IMG/VR virus record: IMGVR_UViG_3300043419_001013
Span: 1-30,434 of that record
DNA: 30,434 nt
Origin: a virus
Direction: 5' to 3' (one strand)
In this document: one piece after another, positions 5,960 to 22,568 of the stretch
Layout: every line of letters starts with the position of its first letter
How positions within the stretch are numbered: the first letter of the stretch is position 1
The notes under the pieces: model-generated
What the model was told of the DNA's origin: nothing
The model's input: the letters and a program-made list of their open reading frames with translations, nothing else
Databases searched by the model: none
Program-made: the position numbers and the translations under genes

Positions 5960-8900
5960 ATGGACGAACAGCCGAAGCTAGCCGACTACTCGCAGCCTTT
6001 CTATCAGTACGATGGAAGCGGTAACGTGGTGGGAGGCTACGGGACTACCGTACCTACATTGACTCCCGGGACTCCGGAGAACTCGATGTACCTGGACTCG
6101 GAGTTCTTGCGTTCAGACCCGAACATCGCCGCGCTCCATAAGGCTATCGACGACGACTTCGCAGCCGCGTCCAAGCCGAAGTACAGTGCGCGTGGATACG
6201 ACGTCCCTCCTGCCGCCATCACGACGCAGTTCTCTGATAGCGCTGAGGCCAAGCGTGCCATGACTGTCGCTAAGCTCGAAACCGAGCATGACGCCGAACA
6301 CGTCTTGCACTACATCGGTGACGATATCCGTGGACTCATCAATCAGGTTCGTGATAACGGGAACTTCGATTGGCGCGCCAGCAAGGACATGACGGATGAA
6401 GAAATCATCGCCCTCGCGGAAGCCCGTGGCGTCGATCCGGTAGCCATCAATTACCTCAAGAACAGCAAGAAGAACCCCGTCGCGAACTACGGCATTGATA
6501 TCATGTCTGCCGTCCGTCGGCGCATGTTCCGTTACGACGAGCGCTACCTGTCCGGCAAGGCCATCGCATCTGACGTCCAGAACCAGCTTTTCGCCCTTCC
6601 TGACGGCCCGATCAAGGCTCAGGCCATGCGCAATTATTCGTACTACCGGGCTTTCTCTGAGGACAGCATGGTGCCTCAGTTCGCGCACGCCCTCGGTCAT
6701 CTCGTAGCCAGCATCGGTGAGTCCGTCGCGAAAGACCTTCCCGTCGGCGTCTTCGAGGCTGTCGCCGGCACAGCCGATGAGAGCCTGTCCCCGAAATACA
6801 TCGCCAACAAGGAACTGCGTTCCAAGGCCATCGCTGTCGTCGAGCGCGCCGAGCGACTTGCGAGGACTGGTCTGTACAAGGATATCGCCCAAGGTGGCAT
6901 CGCCCGAGGGGACAGCTCTAAGGTCATCCAGAAGGCAGGAGAGTTCGTCAGCAATCCTGAAGTCCAACAGGTCATGCTCGACCTCCAGGCTTTGAACGAC
7001 GACGGAGCCTTCGTTCCAGCCTCCCGCTTCAGCCGTATCTTCTCTTTCTTCGACGGTGGCGTCAAAGCCACGCAGGAGTTCTATCGGATGTTCGCCGCGT
7101 CGTCCGACCCTAACAGCCTGTTCTTCAACCTTGAGGCCGGCATGAGCGAGCAAGGCGGACTGATGTACGCCATCAGATCGACAGCCCAAGGGACGAAGCG
7201 CTATCAGCTCGCCCGTGACGACGAAGTTCTCCGCATGGCGCACCAGCTGGAGTCGAACTACAACCATGCGAACTCGAACACCGACAAGGGTGGCGTTGAG
7301 CGCATGTACCTGACGATGGCGGATGCCGCGTCCGACGAGGCTACCAAGACCTATTGGCGCGAGGCTGCTAAGGCGGCTGGGGAACTCACCAACCTCGGCG
7401 TCACAGACCGGGCGCAATACGTCCTCGACCCGACGGTCATCGCCGGCGGTGCAGCAGCCAAAGCCGCGATCGGGATGGTCAAGCCAGCCGCCAAGGTTGC
7501 CTTTATTGACTCTGCCTTGGCTGCCAGGGCTTCGGCTCTTGGCGACGATATCCTCAAGGCAGCAGCCGCAACCGAGAAGGGTGCCGCCACGATCGAGCCG
7601 GCAGTCCGGGCGTTGCAGGATAGGCTTAAGCTTTTCGGCGTGGTCGTCTCGGACAACGAGGCTATCGCCCTTGCCCTGTCTAACAACGCTCAATCCTGGG
7701 AGGTTCGAGCAGCCCTAGGCGGCGTCACGTCTGAGGCCGCTACGATCAGGCAGACAATCGGAAACCTTTCTGCCGGCAACAAGACTCTGCGCACGAACGT
7801 CCAGAGCTTCCTGTCCGATGCCAAGACAGCCGCAGGCAAGGTTCCAAAGCCGAAGGCCGGCATCGCTCGTCCCATCGGTGGGGCTGTCGCCAAGGGCGCC
7901 GGCGTGACTGGTGAGTTCACCGGGAACTTCCTCGATAACCTCGGGGAGTTGCTTCTGGGAAGCACCCCTGAAGGCGTGGAGCGTATGTCCCTTGAGGGCA
8001 TGAAGGCAATCCGCCTTGGTCGCATGGCGGCAGGCGCCACCGGTGGCGGTGTCGTCGCTGTCGGCTACGGTCTTTATGAAGACGGCCCGGAAGGTCTGAT
8101 TGCCGCCGGCGGTCAGTTCGTTAAGGGTGCCGCAATCGCCACCGGGTTCGGCGTCGGCGCTAAGATTGTCGGCCCAGTCCTTGCCCGTAATGGTCGCCTT
8201 CTCAAGAACGTCTCCTCTGAGATTTCCAGCGGAGAACGCAAGGGTGTGTCAGCGTTCCTTCAGGCCGCAGATCGCCTAGACGCGAGCGCTCAGGTCATCA
8301 AGAAGTCAGACCCGAAGAAGGCGCTCCAGATGGCTCAAGACGCCCAGCACCTTCGTAACCTGAACACCATGGGTTACGAGGAAGCCCTTACGCAGACCCT
8401 CGTTGTCGGAGTTCAAGGGGCTTCTGGCGCCTCTGCTGGTGCTATCCTTGCGTGGGCTAATTCCCGCGATAGCATGTCCGCTGGAGCAGGCATGGGTTTC
8501 GGCGGCGCCCTTATCGCCGGAGCCGCATCTAAGCTCGGAGCCATGCTTCCGTCCGGCGTCCAGGCTTCCCGCGAGATGGGGGTTATGGCGACCTCCCTGT
8601 ACTACATCAATCGAGCCAGCCCCGAGCAGCGCGCGAACTTCTTCGAGATGTTCAACCGTGAGGTCGGCGTCGATGCCAATGGCAAGTTCAAGAACAAGGA
8701 CAAGGCCATGCGTATTCTCGATGCGTATAACCTGATGAACGGTGCGCTCGGTCAGGCTGGCTTCGAGCTCGCAAACCCCGGAGCCATGCAGGGCGCAACC
8801 ATCGCCACGCGCCATGCGAACATCGACATGGATGCCCTCAAGACGGTCGCAGGACAGATGTATCCTAACGACCCCAAGATGGCTGCTGCCTACGCCGAAC

Positions 8901-11900
8901 GTCTCGTCGAGCGCGTGAACACGCAGAACAATCAGTTCGCCACGATCGCCGCCGCCAATGCTCGCCTTGAGAACAATACCAAGGTTTCCGAGGCAAACCT
9001 CCGAACCATTGAGTCAATCAAGGAGGGCATCGCTAAGGCTGAAGCCGCCGGCTTGGACAAGCGTGCCGCTGAGCTCAAGTCAGACCTTTCCGCGCGTGAG
9101 GCCAAGCAACAGGTGTATGCCAAGGAGCGCGCTGTCCTCGAACAAGCCCGCGACCTTGAAAAGTCTCGCCTCGTAGATAAGGAAGCCGTTGCCAAGGAAG
9201 CCGACCGCCAAGGATTGCAGGGCGACGAACGCGCTAAGTTCATTGAAGCCGAAACGCTCCGACAGACGGCGCTCCTCGACCCCATCCGCCCTGGCGAACT
9301 GCGCACAGGCACAGCCGGGAACCAGATCCGCCAGATTGCCGACGGCTTCTATATCAACGACGGCAACGGTAAGGTCATGGTTGACTTCACCCGAGCCGAC
9401 GCCCTGACGATGATCCATGAGGGGTTCGAGGCCATCCTGCGAGACGACTCCCTGAAGGCTATCATGCCGGAGTTGGTGAACTTCTTCTACGCAGACCCTA
9501 CATCTCCGTTGTCCACGAAGCGCCTGCTGTCCGACCAGAACCGCCAGCGTTTCTTCGACCTGTACGCCTCAGACCTCACCCCGGAGAACGCCGCGCAGTA
9601 CAAGAAGGACTTGGCTTCCGCCGAGAAACTATTCAAGGAGACGGGAGATTACTCCGCCCTTCTGCCGTTCGTTCAAGAGGCTTCGGCTTGGTGGCTCGCC
9701 GTCCTTCATGACGCCTACCCCCCTGGCTACGCCAACGTCCTAGGCGCCGCCCCGACCTCCGGCTATCAGGGTCGTATCTTCGGTCGCATCTTCGAGGCAG
9801 AGAAGTCCGGAAAGCACAGCCGGCGACCCGGAGAGCTGATGAAGGCTCTCTTGGAGACTGGCACCAAGACTGAAATCTCTGGCGTGCTTGCCTCCGAGTG
9901 GGAGGCGTTCATGAACCCTGAGTACGGCTGGCTTGGCGAGAAATCCCGCAAGCTCATCCGTAGCCGCCTTGAGTCCAACGGCATGATCTTCGAGGACGCC
10001 TCAGACGGCACCGTCCGTGGCTACTTCCGTCAGAACGGCGAGACGATCAATAACCCGATCATGGGCGACCTGTATCGCGTCATCGCCCGTAATCAGGGCG
10101 GAGTCAGCGGCGTGCGTCGTTCGACGATGGATATCATCTCAGACCCGCGCGTCCCCGAGGGCGTCAAGATTGAGTGGATCAAGCAGAATGGACTAGACCA
10201 CATGCTTACAGACCCTGCTACTCCGGGAGAGCCTGTGCGCATCAAGACCCCAGAGGAGCAGACCGCTACCAATACCCGTATTACGGAAAGTGTTCGGGAT
10301 AGCCTTGGCAGCGTTCCAGCCGACCAGCGCGGAACAACCACCACGACAAACCCCTCCAACGGACAGGTCATCTTCCATGGCGTCCCGAGCCCTGCTGAGG
10401 TCGCCGTCATCAAGAACAACCCTGACATTCCCCCCGTCGTCCGAGACAACCTCGTCGGCATCATGGAGGGCATCATGAATGGGAAGACTAACGCCGTCCT
10501 GCGCGCTCAGTACGTCAACGTAAGCACTAAGCAGAAGGGTGTCGGAACCGAGGCGCGCCTCACAGTTCCAGAAGAAACGGGAGGCCCGGTTGTCAGCGAG
10601 AAGCAGTTCGTACCGCTTGGCCTTGTCTTCGGAGTTAGCGACATGCTTCCTGGTGGCGTCAAGACCCCAGGTGGAGTGAAAATCCCGTCCGTCAGCGTGC
10701 TTAGTTTCGACGTGCTAGCCGCCAAGGGCAACCTCAATACAGTTCGCAATCGCGGCCTGTTTGACAAGGAGGGCATGATCATCAAGGACGCGCAAGGCAA
10801 CGATATCACCCCTGCTCGTTTCCGTGAGATGTTCCCCACTGACGGCGACTACTGGAACGCGGTGAACGTGTACCTGACGCACCTTCAGGCTGCTGGCAAG
10901 ATTGACCCTACGAGCAATCGTCCCGTCATGCCTGCCGGCTATGAGCCGTCAGCCGTCAAGCTCGCCGCCCTCGTCGGAGATCCCACGAACATCAAGCTCG
11001 GAGAGTCCATGCGTAATGCGATCCGGGCTACCCTTGGTATCGACGCCAGAAAGGGGATGACGCTCATCAACCCCGCCGGATACGGCAAGGTCATGCGCGA
11101 CATCAACCAGACGATCAGCAGCTTCCGTATCGACGGTCTTGGTAAGGTTTCCATGACGGGCGAGACGTTCTCCATGGACTCCAACACCCTTGCGTGGGCG
11201 CAAGCTAATCTCGCCCCGTCCACATGGCGCGCGCTTAATCAGGACGGCTTGAACGCCCTGCGCGCCACGGATGGATGGAATACGACCCAGGCGTTCGGGC
11301 ATCCGAACAACAACTTCCGCATCGTCGAGGACAGCCGAACCGTCGATGGAAAGACCGAGAAGCGCGTGCGCATCTATGATGCCGCCACCGGAAGCCTGCT
11401 TGAACACAATGCCACTGACGTCAAATCTGCCCGCGAGTTCGTGCGTGATAAGATGGCTACCGACTCCGCGAACGCAGAGATTGCCGCCGCTGCCGCTGAG
11501 CTCGCCAGGACTGAGGCTGCTCGTTATCCGATCATCACGGAAACCCGCACCGGCAAGAAGGTTAATCCAGAGATGACGAATACCGTCGGGCCGATGGCTC
11601 CTATTGGTGGTGGTCAGAACGCCCTCACGCTTGAGCCTGGATACGCCTATCGTATCGTGAGCGCGAACGAAGTCCGTAGTATCTTCACGGAGGGCATGAT
11701 GATTACCGATCCTGCCCTTGAAGGTCAGGCTCCTCGCTCAAGGGGTCAGACGCTGAAGAAGATGTTCAGCGAACTCAATCCGAATAAGCCTGATGCCGGC
11801 TTCCGCCCAGGGTCAATCGTCGTCCGAGTTCGCCGTGAAAACGTCCCGACTGATACCAAGGGTATCCCTGTACGCGACGCAGACGTCCAAGTCATGCAGT

Positions 11901-12883
11901 TCGACGGCGAAAAGTGGGTCGCTAAGACCACCGCCGAGTTCCTAGGCGAGAAGGTTAAACCCGGCCTTGCCGTCAAGGAGCAGCAGGCTTATAACCAGAA
12001 GAAGGCTGAAGCCATCGCCGCTGCCGCCCGCCGTATCATCAAGGAGCGTGATATCAAGTTCGTCAAGAACGAGAACGAGCGCGTGGATGTACAGCGCCAG
12101 TGGGAGGAGGAAGCCGCGCGCCTCGCCTCGGACGAACGCGCAGCCGAAGCTGGACGTCGCGCCAAGCTCGATAAGGATATCGCTGAGGTTCAGGAGGCCG
12201 CTGCCGCCCGCCGCCGTGAGATCGAGAATGACATGGGCAGGCAGTTCGCTGACAAGGCCAACGAGTTCTCTGCCGCCGAACGCTTCTACTTCGGTGACAA
12301 GGTTAAGCTCAATAACGCCATCACCGTGATCGACAAGACCCCCAAGGGTCTGGTTGACCTCGAACGCACGTTGTCCCTTACGCCCCAGCAGCTCGGCGTG
12401 GAAGTCAGGACGGCATCCGTCGTCCAGCCGCTGCCCCTGCCGATCTACCGTCAGGCGCTCGTCTTCGATAAGCGTCCGCTTTCCAAGGCTCCTATGGACG
12501 TGATGAACGCCCGATCCGGCATGCGCGATATCGCTGAGGCCACGACCCTCCAGGGGGTCAAGGGCGCCATGCAGGAGGCGAATAACTACGTCCTGTCCAA
12601 TGCGCTTGGTCAGGTCATCGTCTCCGAGATGCGCTCCCGTCAGGGCGCCAATCCCTACCGCGTGTTCACGGTGTACTCCGCCGGCACCAAGACCAAGCTC
12701 ATCGAAACTGAGAGCTTCCAAGAGGCGCTTCAGAAGTCCCTGTCCGACGCCTACCGGTTGGAGGCCAAGGCCAGAGCCGTCAAGGTTCCGACGCAGGCTG
12801 AGGTCGGCATGGCCTTCGAGGTCGCCAGCCGAGCCACCAAGGGCAAGACGCTTCCCCCGAACATCATCCAGAGATACAAGTGA
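5960..12883 (+). CDS. Giant internal virion / ejection protein (2307 aa)
   Basis: This is the largest gene in the window and sits where T7 gp16 (1318 aa) is found. I see no N-terminal lysozyme-type motif like that of gp16. Two Gly/Ala-rich hydrophobic stretches lie at about residues 687-740 and 811-865, possible membrane-crossing parts. A long charged helix follows at 1000-1080. Around 1145-1160 there is TMIHEGFEAIL, shaped like a zincin metallopeptidase helix but with Glu in place of the second His, followed near 1240 by FVQEASAWW. Around 1893-1960, YRIVSANEVRSIFTEG and GSIVVRVRREN resemble the first strands of ADP-ribosyltransferase-like domains in large polyvalent phage proteins. Residues about 1995-2090 form a coiled coil. 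The enzymatic readings are tentative; the virion role is inferred from position and size. Confidence 0.6.
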   Translation: MDEQPKLADYSQPFYQYDGSGNVVGGYGTTVPTLTPGTPENSMYLDSEFLRSDPNIAALHKAIDDDFAAASKPKYSARGYDVPPAAITTQFSDSAEAKRAMTVAKLETEHDAEHVLHYIGDDIRGLINQVRDNGNFDWRASKDMTDEEIIALAEARGVDPVAINYLKNSKKNPVANYGIDIMSAVRRRMFRYDERYLSGKAIASDVQNQLFALPDGPIKAQAMRNYSYYRAFSEDSMVPQFAHALGHLVASIGESVAKDLPVGVFEAVAGTADESLSPKYIANKELRSKAIAVVERAERLARTGLYKDIAQGGIARGDSSKVIQKAGEFVSNPEVQQVMLDLQALNDDGAFVPASRFSRIFSFFDGGVKATQEFYRMFAASSDPNSLFFNLEAGMSEQGGLMYAIRSTAQGTKRYQLARDDEVLRMAHQLESNYNHANSNTDKGGVERMYLTMADAASDEATKTYWREAAKAAGELTNLGVTDRAQYVLDPTVIAGGAAAKAAIGMVKPAAKVAFIDSALAARASALGDDILKAAAATEKGAATIEPAVRALQDRLKLFGVVVSDNEAIALALSNNAQSWEVRAALGGVTSEAATIRQTIGNLSAGNKTLRTNVQSFLSDAKTAAGKVPKPKAGIARPIGGAVAKGAGVTGEFTGNFLDNLGELLLGSTPEGVERMSLEGMKAIRLGRMAAGATGGGVVAVGYGLYEDGPEGLIAAGGQFVKGAAIATGFGVGAKIVGPVLARNGRLLKNVSSEISSGERKGVSAFLQAADRLDASAQVIKKSDPKKALQMAQDAQHLRNLNTMGYEEALTQTLVVGVQGASGASAGAILAWANSRDSMSAGAGMGFGGALIAGAASKLGAMLPSGVQASREMGVMATSLYYINRASPEQRANFFEMFNREVGVDANGKFKNKDKAMRILDAYNLMNGALGQAGFELANPGAMQGATIATRHANIDMDALKTVAGQMYPNDPKMAAAYAERLVERVNTQNNQFATIAAANARLENNTKVSEANLRTIESIKEGIAKAEAAGLDKRAAELKSDLSAREAKQQVYAKERAVLEQARDLEKSRLVDKEAVAKEADRQGLQGDERAKFIEAETLRQTALLDPIRPGELRTGTAGNQIRQIADGFYINDGNGKVMVDFTRADALTMIHEGFEAILRDDSLKAIMPELVNFFYADPTSPLSTKRLLSDQNRQRFFDLYASDLTPENAAQYKKDLASAEKLFKETGDYSALLPFVQEASAWWLAVLHDAYPPGYANVLGAAPTSGYQGRIFGRIFEAEKSGKHSRRPGELMKALLETGTKTEISGVLASEWEAFMNPEYGWLGEKSRKLIRSRLESNGMIFEDASDGTVRGYFRQNGETINNPIMGDLYRVIARNQGGVSGVRRSTMDIISDPRVPEGVKIEWIKQNGLDHMLTDPATPGEPVRIKTPEEQTATNTRITESVRDSLGSVPADQRGTTTTTNPSNGQVIFHGVPSPAEVAVIKNNPDIPPVVRDNLVGIMEGIMNGKTNAVLRAQYVNVSTKQKGVGTEARLTVPEETGGPVVSEKQFVPLGLVFGVSDMLPGGVKTPGGVKIPSVSVLSFDVLAAKGNLNTVRNRGLFDKEGMIIKDAQGNDITPARFREMFPTDGDYWNAVNVYLTHLQAAGKIDPTSNRPVMPAGYEPSAVKLAALVGDPTNIKLGESMRNAIRATLGIDARKGMTLINPAGYGKVMRDINQTISSFRIDGLGKVSMTGETFSMDSNTLAWAQANLAPSTWRALNQDGLNALRATDGWNTTQAFGHPNNNFRIVEDSRTVDGKTEKRVRIYDAATGSLLEHNATDVKSAREFVRDKMATDSANAEIAAAAAELARTEAARYPIITETRTGKKVNPEMTNTVGPMAPIGGGQNALTLEPGYAYRIVSANEVRSIFTEGMMITDPALEGQAPRSRGQTLKKMFSELNPNKPDAGFRPGSIVVRVRRENVPTDTKGIPVRDADVQVMQFDGEKWVAKTTAEFLGEKVKPGLAVKEQQAYNQKKAEAIAAAARRIIKERDIKFVKNENERVDVQRQWEEEAARLASDERAAEAGRRAKLDKDIAEVQEAAAARRREIENDMGRQFADKANEFSAAERFYFGDKVKLNNAITVIDKTPKGLVDLERTLSLTPQQLGVEVRTASVVQPLPLPIYRQALVFDKRPLSKAPMDVMNARSGMRDIAEATTLQGVKGAMQEANNYVLSNALGQVIVSEMRSRQGANPYRVFTVYSAGTKTKLIETESFQEALQKSLSDAYRLEAKARAVKVPTQAEVGMAFEVASRATKGKTLPPNIIQRYK

Positions 12884-14662: not shown

Positions 14663-14816
14663 AGTTCTCGACGTGCATCTTGCACGATCCTTTTTCGGCG
14701 TCGTACGGCGCTCCGTTGATCCAGAGCTGGAGGAGGTCATCGGACTTCTTCGTGAACCGCAGGCACGTTTCTTTGATGCGACATTCGGCTCCATGGCATT
14801 TGGCTACTTCAGGCAT
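14601..14816 (-). CDS. Small four-cysteine protein, probable zinc-binding
   Basis: A 71-aa protein. Cys7, Cys12, Cys18 and Cys45 follow the pattern C-x4-C-x5-C-x26-C, with a Trp-containing segment (LQLWINGAPYDAEKGSC) before the last Cys. Small phage proteins with this arrangement (C...C...CxRF...W...C) are common and thought to bind zinc, with unknown roles. The start ATG at 14816 overlaps the stop of the preceding gene by 8 bases, so translation is probably coupled. It overlaps the following HTH gene by 62 bases in another frame. Confidence 0.55.
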   Translation of the reverse strand: MPEVAKCHGAECRIKETCLRFTKKSDDLLQLWINGAPYDAEKGSCKMHVENYAQEAKHTQRTVRSTYGSGQ

Positions 14817-15090
14817 TGGGTTTGATATTGGAGCCAGCAGTCGGAGTCGAACCGACGACCTGACGCTTACAAGGCGGCTGCTCTACCGGCTGAGCTATGC
14901 TGGCATGAGTCCTTTGTGCCTTGTTTCCTTTGAGGGTCAAGCCTAGACGCCTGGCGGCTATGTAGATGCTTTGCTGCCGGATGCCATGCTTGGCGATCAC
15001 TTCGGCGTAGGTTAGCCCCTGCTCATGGCCTTCGATGAGGGCTTGCTTGACGTCGCCGTAGCCGGCGCGGGTGCGTTTGGTATCGCTCAC
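14809..15090 (-). CDS. Small HTH protein whose 3' end runs through a tRNA gene
   Basis: A 93-aa reading frame. The start is GTG at 15090, overlapping the previous stop as GTGA, with AAGGAGG about 10 bases upstream supplied by the previous gene. Residues 12-55 (DVKQALIEGHEQ, TYAEVIAKHGIRQQSIYI) form a homeodomain-like helix-turn-helix of the type found in small phage regulators. Residues 63-88 are the in-frame translation of a complete tRNA-Thr gene on the same strand; the sequence QVVGSTPTAG is the typical translation of a T arm. The protein then ends five residues on, overlapping the next start. Either the tRNA was inserted into the gene end or the gene lost its stop. The functional part is the first 60 residues. 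Confidence 0.55.
   Translation of the reverse strand: MSDTKRTRAGYGDVKQALIEGHEQGLTYAEVIAKHGIRQQSIYIAARRLGLTLKGNKAQRTHASIAQPVEQPPCKRQVVGSTPTAGSNIKPNA
14829..14904 (-). tRNA. tRNA-Thr (anticodon TGT)
   Basis: The - strand reads as a 76-base tRNA. The acceptor GCCAGCA pairs fully with TGCTGGC, followed by discriminator T and an encoded CCA. The D stem GCTC/GAGC is intact. The anticodon stem GCCGC/GCGTC has one mismatch; its loop CTTGTAA gives anticodon TGT, which reads ACA (Thr). The T arm is GTCGG-TTCGACT-CCGAC. The gene is entirely inside the reading frame 14809-15090 and in the same direction, so it would have to be processed out of an mRNA. It may compensate for Thr codon use in the phage. 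Confidence 0.92.
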
Positions 15091-15440
15091 GGCTGCTTGC
15101 CCTCCTTGGTCTTTGCGAATAGCCACGCTTGGACGGCTATTGGTTCTTGATAAAAGCAGATTTCAGCCATCGCATCCCCTGCCTTTGTCAGCCGCTCGAC
15201 CTCGGCCTTGAGGCGGGCGTTCTCGGCGACAGTCTCATCAAACAATGCTCGGTTAAACTGTGCGTGTAGTTCACCCACATCTACACGGATGCTTGCGAGC
15301 CGATACCGCTCGGCTTCTTCCTTGATACGGGCGTAGTCCTCGTACTTCACCCACATTCCATCGGCTTGTTCTTTTGCTCCAAGATAGATGGCATCATCAT
15401 CCTCATGCAACCTAAATGCGTATCGGATAGGTTTGCTCAC
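15087..15440 (-). CDS. Small coiled-coil protein of unknown function
   Basis: A 117-aa protein. The start is GTG at 15440 (VSKPIRYAFRL), in a GTGA overlap with the preceding gene and preceded by AAGGAGG; the longer version to 15515 is the upstream gene read in another frame. Residues about 75-92 (ENARLKAEVERLTK) form a short leucine-zipper-like coil, almost identical to one in the protein at 15631-15933. It ends in KEGKQP, whose codons make the ribosome-binding site of the next gene. No function is recognised; accessory phage proteins with such coils are common. Confidence 0.6.
   Translation of the reverse strand: MSKPIRYAFRLHEDDDAIYLGAKEQADGMWVKYEDYARIKEEAERYRLASIRVDVGELHAQFNRALFDETVAENARLKAEVERLTKAGDAMAEICFYQEPIAVQAWLFAKTKEGKQP
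15187..15224. repeat. 38-base direct repeat, copy 1
   Basis: This stretch matches 15755-15792 with one mismatch in 38 bases. Both encode the coil RLKAEVERLTK on the - strand, showing that part of one small gene was copied into the other. Confidence 0.9.
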
Positions 15441-15634
15441 GACTGCTTGCCCTCCTTGGCGGGTTTGTCTTCGCAGATTAGATAGCGTCCACATCCGTAA
15501 GTCATTTCGTGGCATCCGCAGGGCTTACCCTTATGGCATCGGCGTGGAGTCCACTCGAAGCAGGAGAGGTAAGACCAGACGGCGTAGAGCAAGGCTCCGC
15601 CTGCCGCACCGATGATGAACCAATCAGCGCTCAC
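15437..15634 (-). CDS. Small membrane-anchored cysteine-rich protein
   Basis: A 65-aa protein from GTG 15634, in a GTGA overlap, with AAGGAGG from the upstream gene's end. Residues 5-24 (WFIIGAAGGALLYAVWSYL) form one transmembrane helix. The remaining 40 residues hold six cysteines (about 25, 33, 39, 41, 48, 54), including CGCHE and YGCGRY, and end in KEGKQS. A single membrane helix plus a Cys-rich domain suggests an envelope-located metal-binding or disulfide-bonded peptide, possibly acting on the host membrane. I do not recognise a family. Confidence 0.55.
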   Translation of the reverse strand: MSADWFIIGAAGGALLYAVWSYLSCFEWTPRRCHKGKPCGCHEMTYGCGRYLICEDKPAKEGKQS

Positions 15635-15933
15635 GGCTGCTTTCCCTCCTTGGCGGTCAAATAAAGGTAGTGAAGTCGCTGGTATGCTTCTCGTCCTTCT
15701 TTGATTTCTTGGAACATCAAGTTCATATCCCTTTGGCGGGTTTCATTCTCCTTGGTCAGCCGCTCGACCTCGGCCTTGAGGCGGGAGTTCTCTTGCATGG
15801 CGTCAAGCCACTGCTGGTTCCTATGGCGAGCCTCGATCTTCCAGTAGTTGATGTAGTGCTGAGCCGCCTTGATGACCTCATCCTTTGTAGCCCACTCGGG
15901 GGGCTGGAACTGTTCCTCGATTGACGAGCTCAC
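15631..15933 (-). CDS. Small coiled-coil protein, paralogous segment with 15087-15440
   Basis: A 100-aa protein from GTG 15933, in a GTGA overlap with the gene before it. Helical throughout, with a coil around residues 48-70 (ENSRLKAEVERLTKENE) encoded by a 38-base repeat shared with the gene two places downstream, and the same KEGKQP ending. The N-terminal half (IEEQFQPPEWATKDEVIKAA) is not shared. Function unknown; coils of this kind usually mediate dimerisation. Confidence 0.6.
   Translation of the reverse strand: MSSSIEEQFQPPEWATKDEVIKAAQHYINYWKIEARHRNQQWLDAMQENSRLKAEVERLTKENETRQRDMNLMFQEIKEGREAYQRLHYLYLTAKEGKQP
15755..15792. repeat. 38-base direct repeat, copy 2
   Basis: Second copy of the repeat at 15187-15224, one mismatch. 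The two copies are 568 bases apart. Confidence 0.9.
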
Positions 15934-16169
15934 TTACGTACCCCCATCTTGATGACGCGATCGTGGTAGTGCCAGCCCTTGCCTGGGATGTAAGCCCGGA
16001 CGGTGGCGGACACCTCGCTGGCCTGAAGGCGGACGTTGACGGTGATATCATCTTCCTCGGCGGAATACTCGAAGGGAGTAGTCCCGAGGTTTTCGATGAC
16101 GTTCACGATGATGTTGTCAGCCCAGGCTTCAAAGCCGAGGCGCTGGATTTGTTCGTTTGGTTCGTTCAT
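15930..16169 (-). CDS. Hypothetical 79-aa protein
   Basis: ATG at 16169, with no SD. This is the first gene after the terminator at 16210-16263 and probably the first gene of a new transcript. The protein has an acidic middle (FEYSAEEDDITVNVRLQ) and alternating hydrophobic residues suggesting a small beta-rich fold, and ends YHDRVIKMGVRK. The stop overlaps the next GTG start. No family is recognised. Confidence 0.5.
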   Translation of the reverse strand: MNEPNEQIQRLGFEAWADNIIVNVIENLGTTPFEYSAEEDDITVNVRLQASEVSATVRAYIPGKGWHYHDRVIKMGVRK

Positions 16170-16680: not shown

Positions 16681-17445
16681 TCACTTCCGCTTACGACCTG
16701 ACGACCAGAGCTCCCCGTCGAAAACCCAGTGCTTGGAGTCCCAGCGGTGGATCTGATACCCCTTGTACTTCGTGCCGTCCGTGACGAACCGCAGGAAACC
16801 GTTCTGCCACCGGAGCGTCCCGCTTCTCCGTAGGGCGTAGTTAGCCAAGTCGATGTTCATGGCGCACCCGCACAGGAACGCAGCCCCACCTTCGATGTGC
16901 TGGTAGTTCAGCTGCTCCTCGCGGTGCAGATGTCCCATGGCGAACCCATGCCCAGGCGTGCCGTAGGTGGCCTGATCCTGAAGCAAGGCGTTCTTCCCGT
17001 GGCTCATGCCATGGATGAAGTCGATGCCTTCGATGCTAACCCGACAATCCCTGACGTCGTACGGCTTGATGACCTTGCACCCGACAGACCGCAACTCGCG
17101 CTTCATTTCGTCGATGACGTCCTGAGCCTTGCGAGCCTTGGACATGCTATCGGTGTTATGCAGGAGCTCGAACACGCGCCATTCATGGTTGCCGAATAAA
17201 AAATGGGTGGGCTTGTAGCGCCTGATCCAACTAATTCCCGCATCCAGGTCTTCACGGAGGTTGTCGATTGCCTCCTTGGAGTTATGCTCGATGCCCTTGC
17301 GCAGACAGGTCATGTCCCAGTTATCCCCGAGATGTACGCGGTACTTCGGCTTATACCTGGCGACCCCCTCCATGATGGCATCTAGCGTGTCATCACAGGC
17401 GAGGTGTCCATGGTTGTCCCCCATGGCGATGATGTTAGTCAGCAT
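16681..17445 (-). CDS. Calcineurin-like metallophosphoesterase
   Basis: A 254-aa protein. All metal-site motifs are present in order: GDNHG (Asp10, His12), GDNWD (Asp41), GNHE (Asn86, His87), a His in FIHGMSHG (145/149) and GHLH (171-174). These coordinate two metal ions in phosphodiesterases and phosphatases. Phage members are often found among replication genes and may act on nucleic-acid ends, nucleotides or protein phosphates; the substrate cannot be told from sequence. The ATG overlaps the kinase gene's stop by 7 bases, so the two are probably translated together. The C-terminus is basic (SSGRKRK). Confidence 0.88.
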   Translation of the reverse strand: MLTNIIAMGDNHGHLACDDTLDAIMEGVARYKPKYRVHLGDNWDMTCLRKGIEHNSKEAIDNLREDLDAGISWIRRYKPTHFLFGNHEWRVFELLHNTDSMSKARKAQDVIDEMKRELRSVGCKVIKPYDVRDCRVSIEGIDFIHGMSHGKNALLQDQATYGTPGHGFAMGHLHREEQLNYQHIEGGAAFLCGCAMNIDLANYALRRSGTLRWQNGFLRFVTDGTKYKGYQIHRWDSKHWVFDGELWSSGRKRK

Positions 17446-18421: not shown

Positions 18422-19393
18422 TTAGAACGGAACGTCGTCAGCGGGTTCCTCGTAGGCCGGGACTTCGAGGTCAGCCGGAGGGGTGGGCTTAGCGGCACCG
18501 CCCTTGGTCTTGTTCCAGAGCGCGACAGCGGCTTCCTTGAGCGCAGCGTCCTTCGGGCTGACCTTGCCGGTCTTCTCCCACGGGCGCGGTTCCCACTTGT
18601 TCGCCCAGTAGTCCAGGTCGCGCTCGCTGAGCTGGCTGATGGTCTTGCCCTTGTTGTTGCCGAACGGGATCACGGGGTCGGCGCCGGAGCCAGCCGAGGC
18701 AGGGATGCCTTCATGCGGGCGGGCGATAGCCTTGACCTTAGTGGCGTTGTCGAGGACGTCATCGACTTCCTTCGGGAGAACCATGGTGGCCTTGGTCTGC
18801 TTGGCAGGGGCGGATGCGGGACGAGGAGCAGGAGCGACGGTACGGACTTCGACGACAGGGGCGGGAGCACCAGTCGAGCCGGCCTGAGCCCACTCAGGGA
18901 GGGCAGGAGGGTTCCAGCGGAAGCGATTACCCTGCTTGGTCTTGCCATCGTACTTGCCGTTAGGATCGATGACAGCCCAGCCTTCGGGGAGGTCGTACAG
19001 GTAGCGACCGATGCCGAGGTTCACGACAGCACGCTTCATGGCGCCGGAGGCGGCGGACTTGAACGGGTCGATATCGCCGTTGGCTTCGACGGCGCAGGAA
19101 CCGGTGACGGTGCGATAGGGGATGACAACATCACCTTCGGCGCCCCGGGTGCCTTCGATGGTGATCGTGACGACGCAGACCGCCTGCCCGCCGACCTGAT
19201 GGAACTCCTCGGCGTGCGACCAGTTCATGCCGAACACTTCGTCCAGGCGTTCCATGGCTGCGCGGTTGTCGATGTAGGCGAGACAGCGAGCCCAGATGGA
19301 GCCGTCCTGTTTTTCGCCGCAGGAACCGACACGCCATTCGATGCGGTCAGCAGCGAAAGGAGCGCGGAGTTGATTGATGATTTCGTTACTCAT
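18422..19393 (-). CDS. Rad52-like single-strand annealing protein with C-terminal ExoX-like domain
   Basis: A 323-aa protein. Residues 1-140 show the Rad52/Rad22 annealing fold signature: LRAPFAADRIEWRVGS, AYIDNRAAMERLDEVFG, then FKSAASGAMKRAVVNLGIGRYLYDLP. These proteins form rings that anneal complementary single strands in phage recombination. Residues 165-235 are an Ala/Pro linker. Residues 240-275 (IPFGNNKGKTISQL then LDYWANKW) match the small domain found at the C-terminus of ExoX-type proteins, which probably binds DNA ends. The extreme C-terminus is acidic and ends DDVPF, like the SSB tail that recruits partners. It works with the RecE-like nuclease at 21744-22568. ATG 19393 has the leader TAACCC and no SD. 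Confidence 0.85.
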   Translation of the reverse strand: MSNEIINQLRAPFAADRIEWRVGSCGEKQDGSIWARCLAYIDNRAAMERLDEVFGMNWSHAEEFHQVGGQAVCVVTITIEGTRGAEGDVVIPYRTVTGSCAVEANGDIDPFKSAASGAMKRAVVNLGIGRYLYDLPEGWAVIDPNGKYDGKTKQGNRFRWNPPALPEWAQAGSTGAPAPVVEVRTVAPAPRPASAPAKQTKATMVLPKEVDDVLDNATKVKAIARPHEGIPASAGSGADPVIPFGNNKGKTISQLSERDLDYWANKWEPRPWEKTGKVSPKDAALKEAAVALWNKTKGGAAKPTPPADLEVPAYEEPADDVPF

Positions 19394-21092: not shown

Positions 21093-21744
21093 GTTCGTGA
21101 TCCTCCGACTTCAGGGCTGGACGCTTCGGCATAAGGACGTGGCGAGGCGGGAACAGCCCTTGCCAGCCGTTCCGGATGGACTGCTGGATGCACTCGATGG
21201 CCTCGGCTTCGGAGGACAGGCTGGCTAGCAGCTCGAACTGCTTTGTGATGGTGGTCGCGGTGAGGCGGGCTTTCTTCTCCTTTCGGAACTGAACCCACTC
21301 ATCCCACGCCTTCGCCATCCCCTCCCCCCAAGGGGGTAAGGGGGTATCTGTATTCTCTTTCTTATCTTCTTTTCTATTAGGGTGAACCACAGTGCATGGG
21401 GGGGGTGAACTGTGCTTCACGGGGGGGTGAACTGGGTCGCATGGGGTCATGCCCTGGAAAGCAAGGGTGCTGATAGTCGTAAGAAGCCGGGTCTTGGCGT
21501 TGCCAATGCCGGCCTCAGAACGCACGATCAGGCTCTTATCGACGAGCTCATTGATGAGCCCTTGGATGTGCCGCTTGCTGCATCCGACGACCTCGCTGAG
21601 ATAGGCGTTCGAGGCGTAGCAACCCTTGGTGTCGAGCGCCTGGATGACCGCGTAAAGCACCTTAGCCAAGGGCGTGAGCTCCTTGTCCAAGGCGACCTCC
21701 CGTGGGATCCAGATGCCCGTGAAGGCTTGGTTGATGACGTGCAT
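21082..21744 (-). CDS. Winged-helix replication initiator-like protein
   Basis: A 220-aa protein. Residues 8-75 (WIPREVALDKELTPLAKVLY then YASNAYLSEVVGCSKRHIQG) form the winged-helix domain typical of phage replication initiators of the lambda O/DnaD-like group. Residues 95-150 are a Pro-rich linker including repeated His-Pro-Pro. The C-terminal part (AIECIQQSIRNGWQGLF) is the helical segment by which such initiators usually contact helicase loader or helicase. Being immediately upstream of the DnaC-like gene supports this. The origin is often inside the initiator gene; the strand-biased C-tract stretch at about 21320-21440, with runs such as GGGGGG and CCCCTCCCCCC, is one place to look. Confidence 0.75.
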   Translation of the reverse strand: MHVINQAFTGIWIPREVALDKELTPLAKVLYAVIQALDTKGCYASNAYLSEVVGCSKRHIQGLINELVDKSLIVRSEAGIGNAKTRLLTTISTLAFQGMTPCDPVHPPVKHSSPPPCTVVHPNRKEDKKENTDTPLPPWGEGMAKAWDEWVQFRKEKKARLTATTITKQFELLASLSSEAEAIECIQQSIRNGWQGLFPPRHVLMPKRPALKSEDHERGF

Positions 21745-22568
21745 CAGAACTTCTCCCCGAGGCTGAGGGTGAGCTTCTTGCCGTAGTTGACGCCGGGATA
21801 GACGCCGGACTCAAGACAGTCGGCGTACTGTTCGTACAGACCATCGAGCTTCATCTCAGCCATGGCAAGCCAGCCGTCGTCGAGGCTAACGGTGCATACA
21901 TCATGACCTGCCGTTTCAGTCTCACCGAAGTATAGTTCCATCAAGTCAGGCGTGCGATTGTAAATAATCTGAACCACGCGCCGGTAGTGCGCGAGCTGGA
22001 GGTCATAGCCACTCTCGATGATCCGGTAGTACAGCGCGCGCTTAGTCATCTCGGCGCCGAACGTCTTGACGTCTCCGATGGTCGTGCAAGGGATGAACAG
22101 GTCGAGCTTAGCCTTCATCGGGAAGCCGAACTTAGGGTGCTTGCACTGGAGCACGACTTCCTTGAGAACGTCGGGGTGGCTGGACACGGCGGCGAACTCA
22201 GGGTGCTTCTTGATCTTCTCGATGACCGCGTTCCCGTTGTCCATCTGGGAAGGGGAGAGGAGAACGCCGTCAGGGTTGGCCTGCTTCCAAGCGGCGCGGG
22301 CGTTCTTGCTGCCCTCGCCGGTAGTCGGGAGGCACGCGAAGTTCGAGAGCTCAGACGGGCTGAGGAGCGAGGCGTGGATGAACGAGCCGAGGTCGGTCGC
22401 GGCGGAGCCGTCGAAGTCGTCGGTCTGCGCGCGCAGCGGGCTCACCCGGAACTTCTTCAGGTACGAGGCGGACAGCGCGGGGATCGCGAAGTACTCCTTG
22501 TCGGGCATGCCGACGGTGACGCCGGCGGGGTGGATGTTGGTCGTGGATTTGGATTTGGGTTTGCTCAT
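21744..22568 (-). CDS. RecE/YqaJ-like PDDEXK exonuclease
   Basis: A 274-aa protein. Motifs of the PDDEXK nuclease fold are seen in order: YFAIPALSASYLKKF (27-41), GSFIHASLLSP (His65), KEVVLQC (Glu137), KLDLF (Asp156), GDVKT (Asp166, Lys168) and YDLQLAHYRR (188-197, Gln191 and Tyr195). This is the pattern of exonuclease VIII-type phage proteins, which resect duplex ends 5' to 3' to expose single strands for the annealing protein. Its partner, the Rad52-like protein, is in the same operon. The length is normal for the family. It overlaps the initiator start by one base (TGATG). Confidence 0.85.
   Translation of the reverse strand: MSKPKSKSTTNIHPAGVTVGMPDKEYFAIPALSASYLKKFRVSPLRAQTDDFDGSAATDLGSFIHASLLSPSELSNFACLPTTGEGSKNARAAWKQANPDGVLLSPSQMDNGNAVIEKIKKHPEFAAVSSHPDVLKEVVLQCKHPKFGFPMKAKLDLFIPCTTIGDVKTFGAEMTKRALYYRIIESGYDLQLAHYRRVVQIIYNRTPDLMELYFGETETAGHDVCTVSLDDGWLAMAEMKLDGLYEQYADCLESGVYPGVNYGKKLTLSLGEKF

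Follow-up and report, generated by a model that had tools for sequence, protein, structure and literature searches.

The virus record IMGVR_UViG_3300043419_001013 of IMG/VR, a linear record of 30,434 bases that was analysed at its full length (hereafter the window), carries on its minus strand three small consecutive genes that end in the same coding sequence, and this sequence also contains a Shine-Dalgarno (SD) sequence and a GTG start codon for the next gene. Comparison of this junction, which we call the terminal joint, across related viral contigs suggests that it is likely a standard joint for the exchange of small accessory genes in uncultured tailed phages, probably those of Verrucomicrobiota.

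The terminal joint in the window

The 23-base pattern AAGGAGGGNAAGCAGNCGTGAGC is found on the minus strand of the window exactly three times, compared with 0 occurrences in 100 dinucleotide shuffles of the window. The three copies and the four genes that they connect, here named A to D, are as follows (aa, amino acids):

15629..15651, minus strand: joint copy 1, end of gene A and start of gene B (AAGGAGGGAAAGCAGCCGTGAGC), exact pattern match
15435..15457, minus strand: joint copy 2, end of gene B and start of gene C (AAGGAGGGCAAGCAGTCGTGAGC), exact pattern match
15085..15107, minus strand: joint copy 3, end of gene C and start of gene D (AAGGAGGGCAAGCAGCCGTGAGC), exact pattern match
15631..15933, minus strand: gene A, 100 aa, a mosaic of two halves by sequence comparison (see below)
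15437..15634, minus strand: gene B, 65 aa, with a hydrophobic start and a Cys-rich middle
15087..15440, minus strand: gene C, 117 aa, with an internal ENARLKAEVERLTKAGD block
14809..15090, minus strand: gene D, a 93-aa open frame whose start lies within joint copy 3

The products of genes A, B and C have a C-terminal Lys-Glu-Gly-Lys-Gln followed by Ser or Pro, the three tails reading AKEGKQP, AKEGKQS and TKEGKQP directly before the stop. At every joint of the window the TGA stop codon overlaps the next GTG as GTGA, and AAGGAGG stands 10 nucleotides (nt) upstream of the GTG. The initial annotation had described three successive genes with a common KEGKQ tail, which doubles as protein end and as SD for a GTG overlapping the stop; the exact pattern bears out the three copies and, at all three junctions, this layout. 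The strand has to be stated as minus, the next genes running from 15634 to 15437 (B), from 15440 to 15087 (C) and from 15090 to 14809 (D). Over 98 copies of the joint, conservation opens with a weaker TGGAACGCCGCC (W-N-A-A) and closes at GTGAGC, and the joint is therefore slightly longer upstream than first noted.

Gene exchange at the terminal joint

The exact joint pattern was found in 75 other contigs of IMG/VR and its ATG form in five, while a codon-permuted control, made of the same letters with two codons exchanged, had 0 matches in IMG/VR. L081, an isolate-genome contig with the ATG form, was taken as a chance match, having a GC content of 0.477 and none of the features of the family. 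To describe the surroundings of the joint, the 60 bases on each side of 98 copies were clustered; loci fetched twice, window copies (L076-L078) and chance loci are excluded from these counts as well as from the flank, gene-end and exact-run counts given below. The 98 copies fall into 67 upstream clusters and 56 downstream clusters, which occur in 79 combinations, and more than one partner on the other side was found for 10 of the 21 multi-member upstream clusters and for 13 of the 22 multi-member downstream clusters.

Pairwise alignments show that the swap point coincides with the joint to within a few bases. L049 and L071 agree at 100 of 100 bases upstream of the joint and at 25 of 100 downstream of it, while another joint of L049 compared with that of L071 gives 38 of 100 before and 99 of 100 after. 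About 197-206 identical bases of a B-like gene are shared by L020, L057 and L061, and are followed by three different genes; in front of this gene L020 and L057 differ as well, and the contig L061 stops there. The 84% match of gene B of the window to L020, L057, L061 and L006 spans the distance from one joint to the next (15656 to 15433 at the longest), and gene C is 90% identical to L008 over 15341-15160. The initial annotation had suggested looking in related phages for the same junction beside different genes and for recombination at the junction. The first was found in the 79 combinations, and the second in aligned pairs whose near-identity ends at the joint, with unrelated sequence on the far side.

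Its reading of the junction as a portable connector is thereby supported, with the qualifications that most contigs hold a single copy, that other gene ends are mosaic too, and that a further joint inside the genes had been missed. The situation that it took as contrary to this reading, in which the same genes are kept and the junction is not conserved, was encountered for one neighbour only, a metallophosphoesterase gene, which such a tail precedes in some loci but not in others, as would be expected if the joint travels with the upstream gene.

Conservation of the joint as DNA

A scan of IMG/VR in which every synonymous spelling of KEGKQ was allowed returned 85 contigs, made up of the 75 with the exact pattern, the five with the ATG form and five new ones; among the latter, L174 and L175 are clearly family members, and L172 and L176 look like chance. 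The codons AAG GAG GGN AAG CAG are retained in 80 of the 85 contigs, whereas the codon usage of the window (0.89, 0.64, 0.89 and 0.82) predicts a fraction of about 0.42. Similarly, among 97 tails detected through the protein in the fetched loci, 16 depart from the exact pattern, yet have nearly the same bases. The information content over the 98 copies, which is informative only at the free positions and in the surroundings as the joint itself was selected by the pattern, is high across the joint as far as GTGAGC; over the preceding TGGAACGCCGCC it is moderate, and farther out it drops to about background. The third base of the Gly codon is C in 92% of the copies. Because 80 of the 85 contigs keep identical codons, the joint is, judged from its spelling, conserved at the DNA level beyond the sequence of the protein.

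An internal joint and mosaic proteins

The terminal joint of the initial annotation was confirmed, but its inventory overlooked a second joint that lies inside the genes, of which the window has two copies:

15750..15792, minus strand: internal joint (RLKAEVERLTK block) within gene A, sharing 95% identity over 43 nt with its counterpart in gene C
15182..15224, minus strand: internal joint (ENARLKAEVERLTKAG block) in gene C, the other member of the 43-nt comparison with gene A

The block encodes A-R-L-K-A-E-V-E-R-L with an LKAEVER core, and is likewise frozen as DNA: Leu is spelled CTC in 90% of the copies (37% in the window) and Ala GCC in 97% (47% in the window), and CGG is present in 0.65 of the copies at a position that encodes Arg in 0.80 of them, while it accounts for 0.10 of the Arg codons of the window. 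Comparison of 128 internal blocks with their flanks yielded 130 pairs with matching sequence on one side and different sequence on the other, and 20 that match on both sides. For instance, L030 and L055 are identical up to the block, after which L030 passes at once into the KEGKQ tail and L055 into other sequence. A direct fusion of block and tail (LKAEVERLKEGKQS) occurs in both L030 and L070 and looks as though the two joints had met without any intervening sequence.

Gene A of the window is likewise a mosaic of two halves, the first (15933-15796) having 81-82% DNA identity to L071, L049 and L034, and the second (15788-15629) having 76% to L126 and L127. One could also imagine that a single gene family was duplicated and diverged in the middle with the joint retained, as most upstream genes follow a ENARLKAEVERLTKAGD..WNAAKEGKQS plan and genes A and C have the 43-nt block in common. 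However, gene B and several other tail-bearing genes are unrelated to that plan, and near-identical genes stop abruptly at the joint beside unrelated neighbours; such edges cannot be produced by divergence, and we regard plain descent as highly improbable.

Translation signals at the joint

The starts at the joint have an anti-SD pairing energy of -11.9 kcal/mol, the strongest among the 29 starts tested in the window, and -6 kcal/mol is reached by 6 of the 26 others, compared with 15% of random 22-mers. Based on a simple gene caller, neither the relatives (458 genes) nor a metagenome-assembled genome (MAG) of Opitutae (93 genes) has an excess of SDs over background, while the same comparison recovers one in E. 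coli K-12 (0.34 vs 0.08). Some Verrucomicrobia are listed as SD-scarce in a passage of PMC10783764. In these phages an SD is found in 42% of 100 GTGA overlaps that have no joint, and in 14% of 301 ATGA overlaps.

The metallophosphoesterase neighbour was surveyed in 80 loci fetched by protein, regardless of the joint; once four matches that began beyond the first residue had been set aside, 76 starts remained, 56 of them ATG and 20 GTG. Over the 52 distinct upstream sequences, pairing of -6 kcal/mol or better was obtained for 15 of 16 GTG starts vs 9 of 36 ATG starts, and the tails before GTG include KEGKQS and the sister forms KGVQS, KKGGQP and KGGKK. As the GTG starts of this gene go with strong-SD tails, SD and GTG would tend to arrive together with the upstream gene. 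We read these patterns as a special use of SDs, which would support GTG starts at coupled gene ends.

Sister connectors with the same layout and different letters (KGVQS, KKGGQP, KEGKGQP and KEGKPSV) end genes of the same family, e.g. in L008, L025, L031, L045 and L073, and a connector of this kind with a KMGVRK tail and an SD-like GGGGG precedes gene A itself. These connectors, together with the coupling of GTG to strong SDs and the mosaicism of other gene ends, would fit a joint that is kept by selection for translation alone, the swaps then being unguided mosaicism that survives only where the connector is intact. Selection for an SD, on the other hand, leaves unexplained the frozen AAG CAG spacer, the third base of the Gly codon and the choice among synonymous codons, and the internal block has no start codon, yet is frozen and swapped likewise. 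Maintenance by translation alone therefore seems unlikely to us, though it deserves more weight than duplication with divergence.

Recombinases and a possible route of exchange

Two genes of the window encode proteins related to recombination functions:

18422..19393, minus strand: Erf/Rad52-like single-strand annealing protein (PHROG 1097, E 9e-47; Pfam Rad52_Rad22, E 1e-14)
21744..22568, minus strand: Exonuclease VIII-like / DUF3799 protein, likely partner of the annealing protein (PHROG 412, E 1e-33; Pfam DUF3799, E 1e-11)

Recombinases were counted in 33 records of 15 kb or more, namely the window and 32 contigs (including L081) from about 82 contigs. Annealing proteins above the Pfam cut-off are encoded by 23 of the 33 (ERF in 17, one being the chance contig L081; Rad52 in three; RecT in three), weak RecT hits occur in five further records, all different, and a tyrosine integrase is present in three. 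The minimal pairing segment is given as 23-27 bp for Red-beta and 31-34 for RecA in a passage of PMC3945230, which also shows Erf of phage D3 to be active on diverged DNA. In discordant pairs the exact runs within the terminal joint have a median of 28 bases and reach at least 23 in 48 of 57, a fraction inflated by the selection of the joint through its pattern, and runs of 23 nt or more are seen in 139 of 173 discordant pairs of the internal block, which is less affected by this.

Single-strand annealing at the joint thus appears the most likely route of exchange. Homologous pairing at the joint would bring in a gene that is terminated in frame, and the gene behind it would receive its ribosome-binding site and start codon from the joint. 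The phage's own Erf/Rad52/RecT-type recombinase would anneal the 23-38 identical bases as single strands, and the LKAEVER block may work likewise, so that small proteins would be shuffled in halves. The sequences themselves show that the joint is conserved as DNA, that swaps occur at both joints, that reading frames are kept, that the SD is strong, and that most of the larger contigs encode an annealing recombinase; the role of annealing in the swaps is an inference. More tentatively, and with appreciable doubt on our part, the two joints might together form an assembly system driven by the annealing recombinase, in which the terminal joint swaps whole genes and the internal joint swaps halves; new accessory proteins would then be generated in a manner resembling exon shuffling, in a phage and a host that are otherwise poor in SDs.

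The sharp ends of the exchanged segments, and single-gene cassettes such as gene B, also recall site-specific recombination, with the joint as the recognition site of an integrase, as in integrons; in part of PMC9892861, integron cassettes and attC sites are described for phages, where a common sequence likewise flanks single genes. However, no inverted repeat of 12 nt or more lies at the joints (0 inverted repeats in window 15050-15700), and the predicted RNA structure at the three joints is nothing unusual (z-scores 0.79, -0.41 and 0.99). Furthermore, integrases are rare (the 3/33 above), related coding joints with different letters exist, and the second joint sits inside genes. An attC cassette was accordingly rejected, and we give site-specific recombination in general hardly any credence.

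Distribution of the joint and probable host

Most contigs carry one copy of the joint (59 of 75), 16 carry two when up to 1 mismatch is allowed, and the window alone has three; tandem cassettes with the joint on both sides are hence the exception. Copies with 2 mismatches were not found and those with 3 mismatches numbered two, and the exact pattern has 0 matches in GTDB genomes. The joint-bearing contigs, all of them metagenomic contigs or fragments, fall largely into one loose phage group: relatives of window proteins in the joint loci include the metallophosphoesterase (49 loci), a deoxynucleoside monophosphate (dNMP) kinase (29 loci) and Erf-like, DnaC-like and O-like proteins (12-14 each), while the core proteins are often just 30-57% identical to those of the window. 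Among 50,697 records of named phages no match was found to the gene C protein, a 2307-aa protein of the window, the DNA of the B cassette or the metallophosphoesterase, and the Erf protein of the window matches P22-like Erf over half its length. A DNA search of the joint region in phages gave listed matches that are mainly tRNA genes, and no description of this joint was met among the papers listed by the literature searches.

Metallophosphoesterases with 72% and 67% identity to the protein used as query are encoded on two contigs of the Opitutae MAG, one of which also contains the internal block's core, and another Verrucomicrobia MAG has a third relative (29%). From these relatives we infer that the host probably belongs to Verrucomicrobiota, bearing in mind that the binning of phage contigs into MAGs can err.

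Other features of the region

Upstream of gene A lies the gene that bears the KMGVRK tail:

15930..16169, minus strand: 79 aa, its tail overlapping the start of gene A as GTGA

The open frame of gene D passes through an entire tRNA-Thr gene on the same strand (14829-14904, minus strand), and the end of gene D may either overlap the tRNA or have been replaced by it. Pfam and PHROGs offered no usable family for the proteins of genes A, B, C or D, and the predicted fold of the gene C protein was uninformative (mean predicted local distance difference test score, pLDDT, 43.9). The 2307-aa protein is encoded at 5960-12883 (plus strand), with distant relatives (26-29%) in L061 and L062. The metallophosphoesterase, at 16681-17445 (minus strand), has no match in named phages, and its homologue in L047 has relatives in 191 of 195 candidate IMG/VR stretches.

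Mosaicism at and beyond the joints

Flanks of 60 bases were called discordant when one side was 80% or more alike and the other no more than 45%. By this measure 52 of 74 pairs are discordant at the terminal joint and 173 of 195 at the internal block, compared with 1020 of 8352 at other shared 21-mers, a control that favours long homologous stretches. Sharp alignment ends are likewise concentrated, 49 of 408 falling at the terminal joint and 57 at the internal block, which make up 2.0% and 2.4% of the covered positions; 301 of the 408 lie at neither joint, and one at a sister joint.

Several points, including the nature of the 21-mer control, weigh against a dedicated joint. Other called gene ends in these loci are discordant in 1236 of 2201 pairs (0.56), compared with 19 of 26 joint pairs (0.73), a comparison that retained 55 joint ends as the simple gene caller drops short genes; the excess of the joint is modest and based on small numbers, and the accessory region is mosaic throughout. 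The contigs were, moreover, sampled for carrying the joint. Five of the 33 larger records have no annealing protein even when weak RecT hits are counted, and the relatives and the probable host do not seem to use SDs generally, which means that use of the SD of the joint is not assured. What sets the joint apart from other gene ends is the shared DNA at the swap point.

A further point of this kind concerns the assembly itself, since short reads of mixed phages might have been joined at a common repeat. The relatives are all metagenomic, and the number of joints close to a contig end is somewhat above expectation (9 of 75 vs 4.8). Just 14 of the 79 gene combinations were seen in more than one metagenome; as the other 65 are each confined to a single one, individual assembly chimeras are possible. 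Against a general artefact stand those 14 recurrent combinations, the position of the joint more than 1 kb from both ends in 20 of the 24 contigs that measure at least 20 kb, and the consideration that a repeat with frozen codons must itself exist for such joining. We therefore deem it very unlikely that the exchanges as a whole result from assembly, and continue to favour a joint at which genes are exchanged.

Comparison with known systems

It is an old question whether the neat gene joints of phages come from unguided recombination followed by selection, or are guided by short boundary sequences. Among the systems that bear on it, the PeSLs of T4-like phages, the subject of Comeau et al. in 2014, are reportedly, by the title of that work, a conserved motif mediating modular shuffling, and are said to be promoter-terminator motifs composed of an early promoter and a terminator stem-loop. 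The joint region has 0 promoter-like sites and two terminator-like sites, both on the non-coding strand and within chance, and a PeSL was rejected. Shuffling of protein fragments between phages is described, in part of PMC10684548, for core functions linked to host interaction; here, in contrast, small accessory proteins are concerned, and the exchange point is one frozen DNA block.

In its position the joint resembles the SAS/ESAS of cluster K mycobacteriophages, the 13-bp GGGATAGGAGCCC, which a passage of PMC3203893 reports in 11-19 copies per genome, mostly before ATG starts. Both are short, asymmetric, conserved DNA with an SD core, placed immediately ahead of the start codons of accessory genes that belong to different families. 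The joint differs in that it is coding, includes the stop and a GTG start, is present in 1-3 copies (the contigs being fragments), and is seen to have swaps across it. Membership in the SAS was rejected, as GGGATAGGAGCCC at up to 2 mismatches has one match in the window, compared with an average of 1.15 in shuffles, and the copy number does not agree either.

The joint also resembles the boundary sequences long proposed for phage mosaicism, i.e. homologous recombination at short conserved sequences between phage modules, as put forward in a passage of PMC3029335, and by this analogy the joint would work much as they do. The same short DNA stands between modules whose other sides are unrelated, and its identical bases reach the length needed by phage annealing recombinases (threshold from the passage of PMC3945230 cited above). 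The difference is that dozens of unrelated gene pairs share a single joint here, and that a second one lies inside genes. Here the boundary sequence is visible, is itself coding and has its own translation signals, and a matching block within the genes appears to shuffle the halves of proteins.
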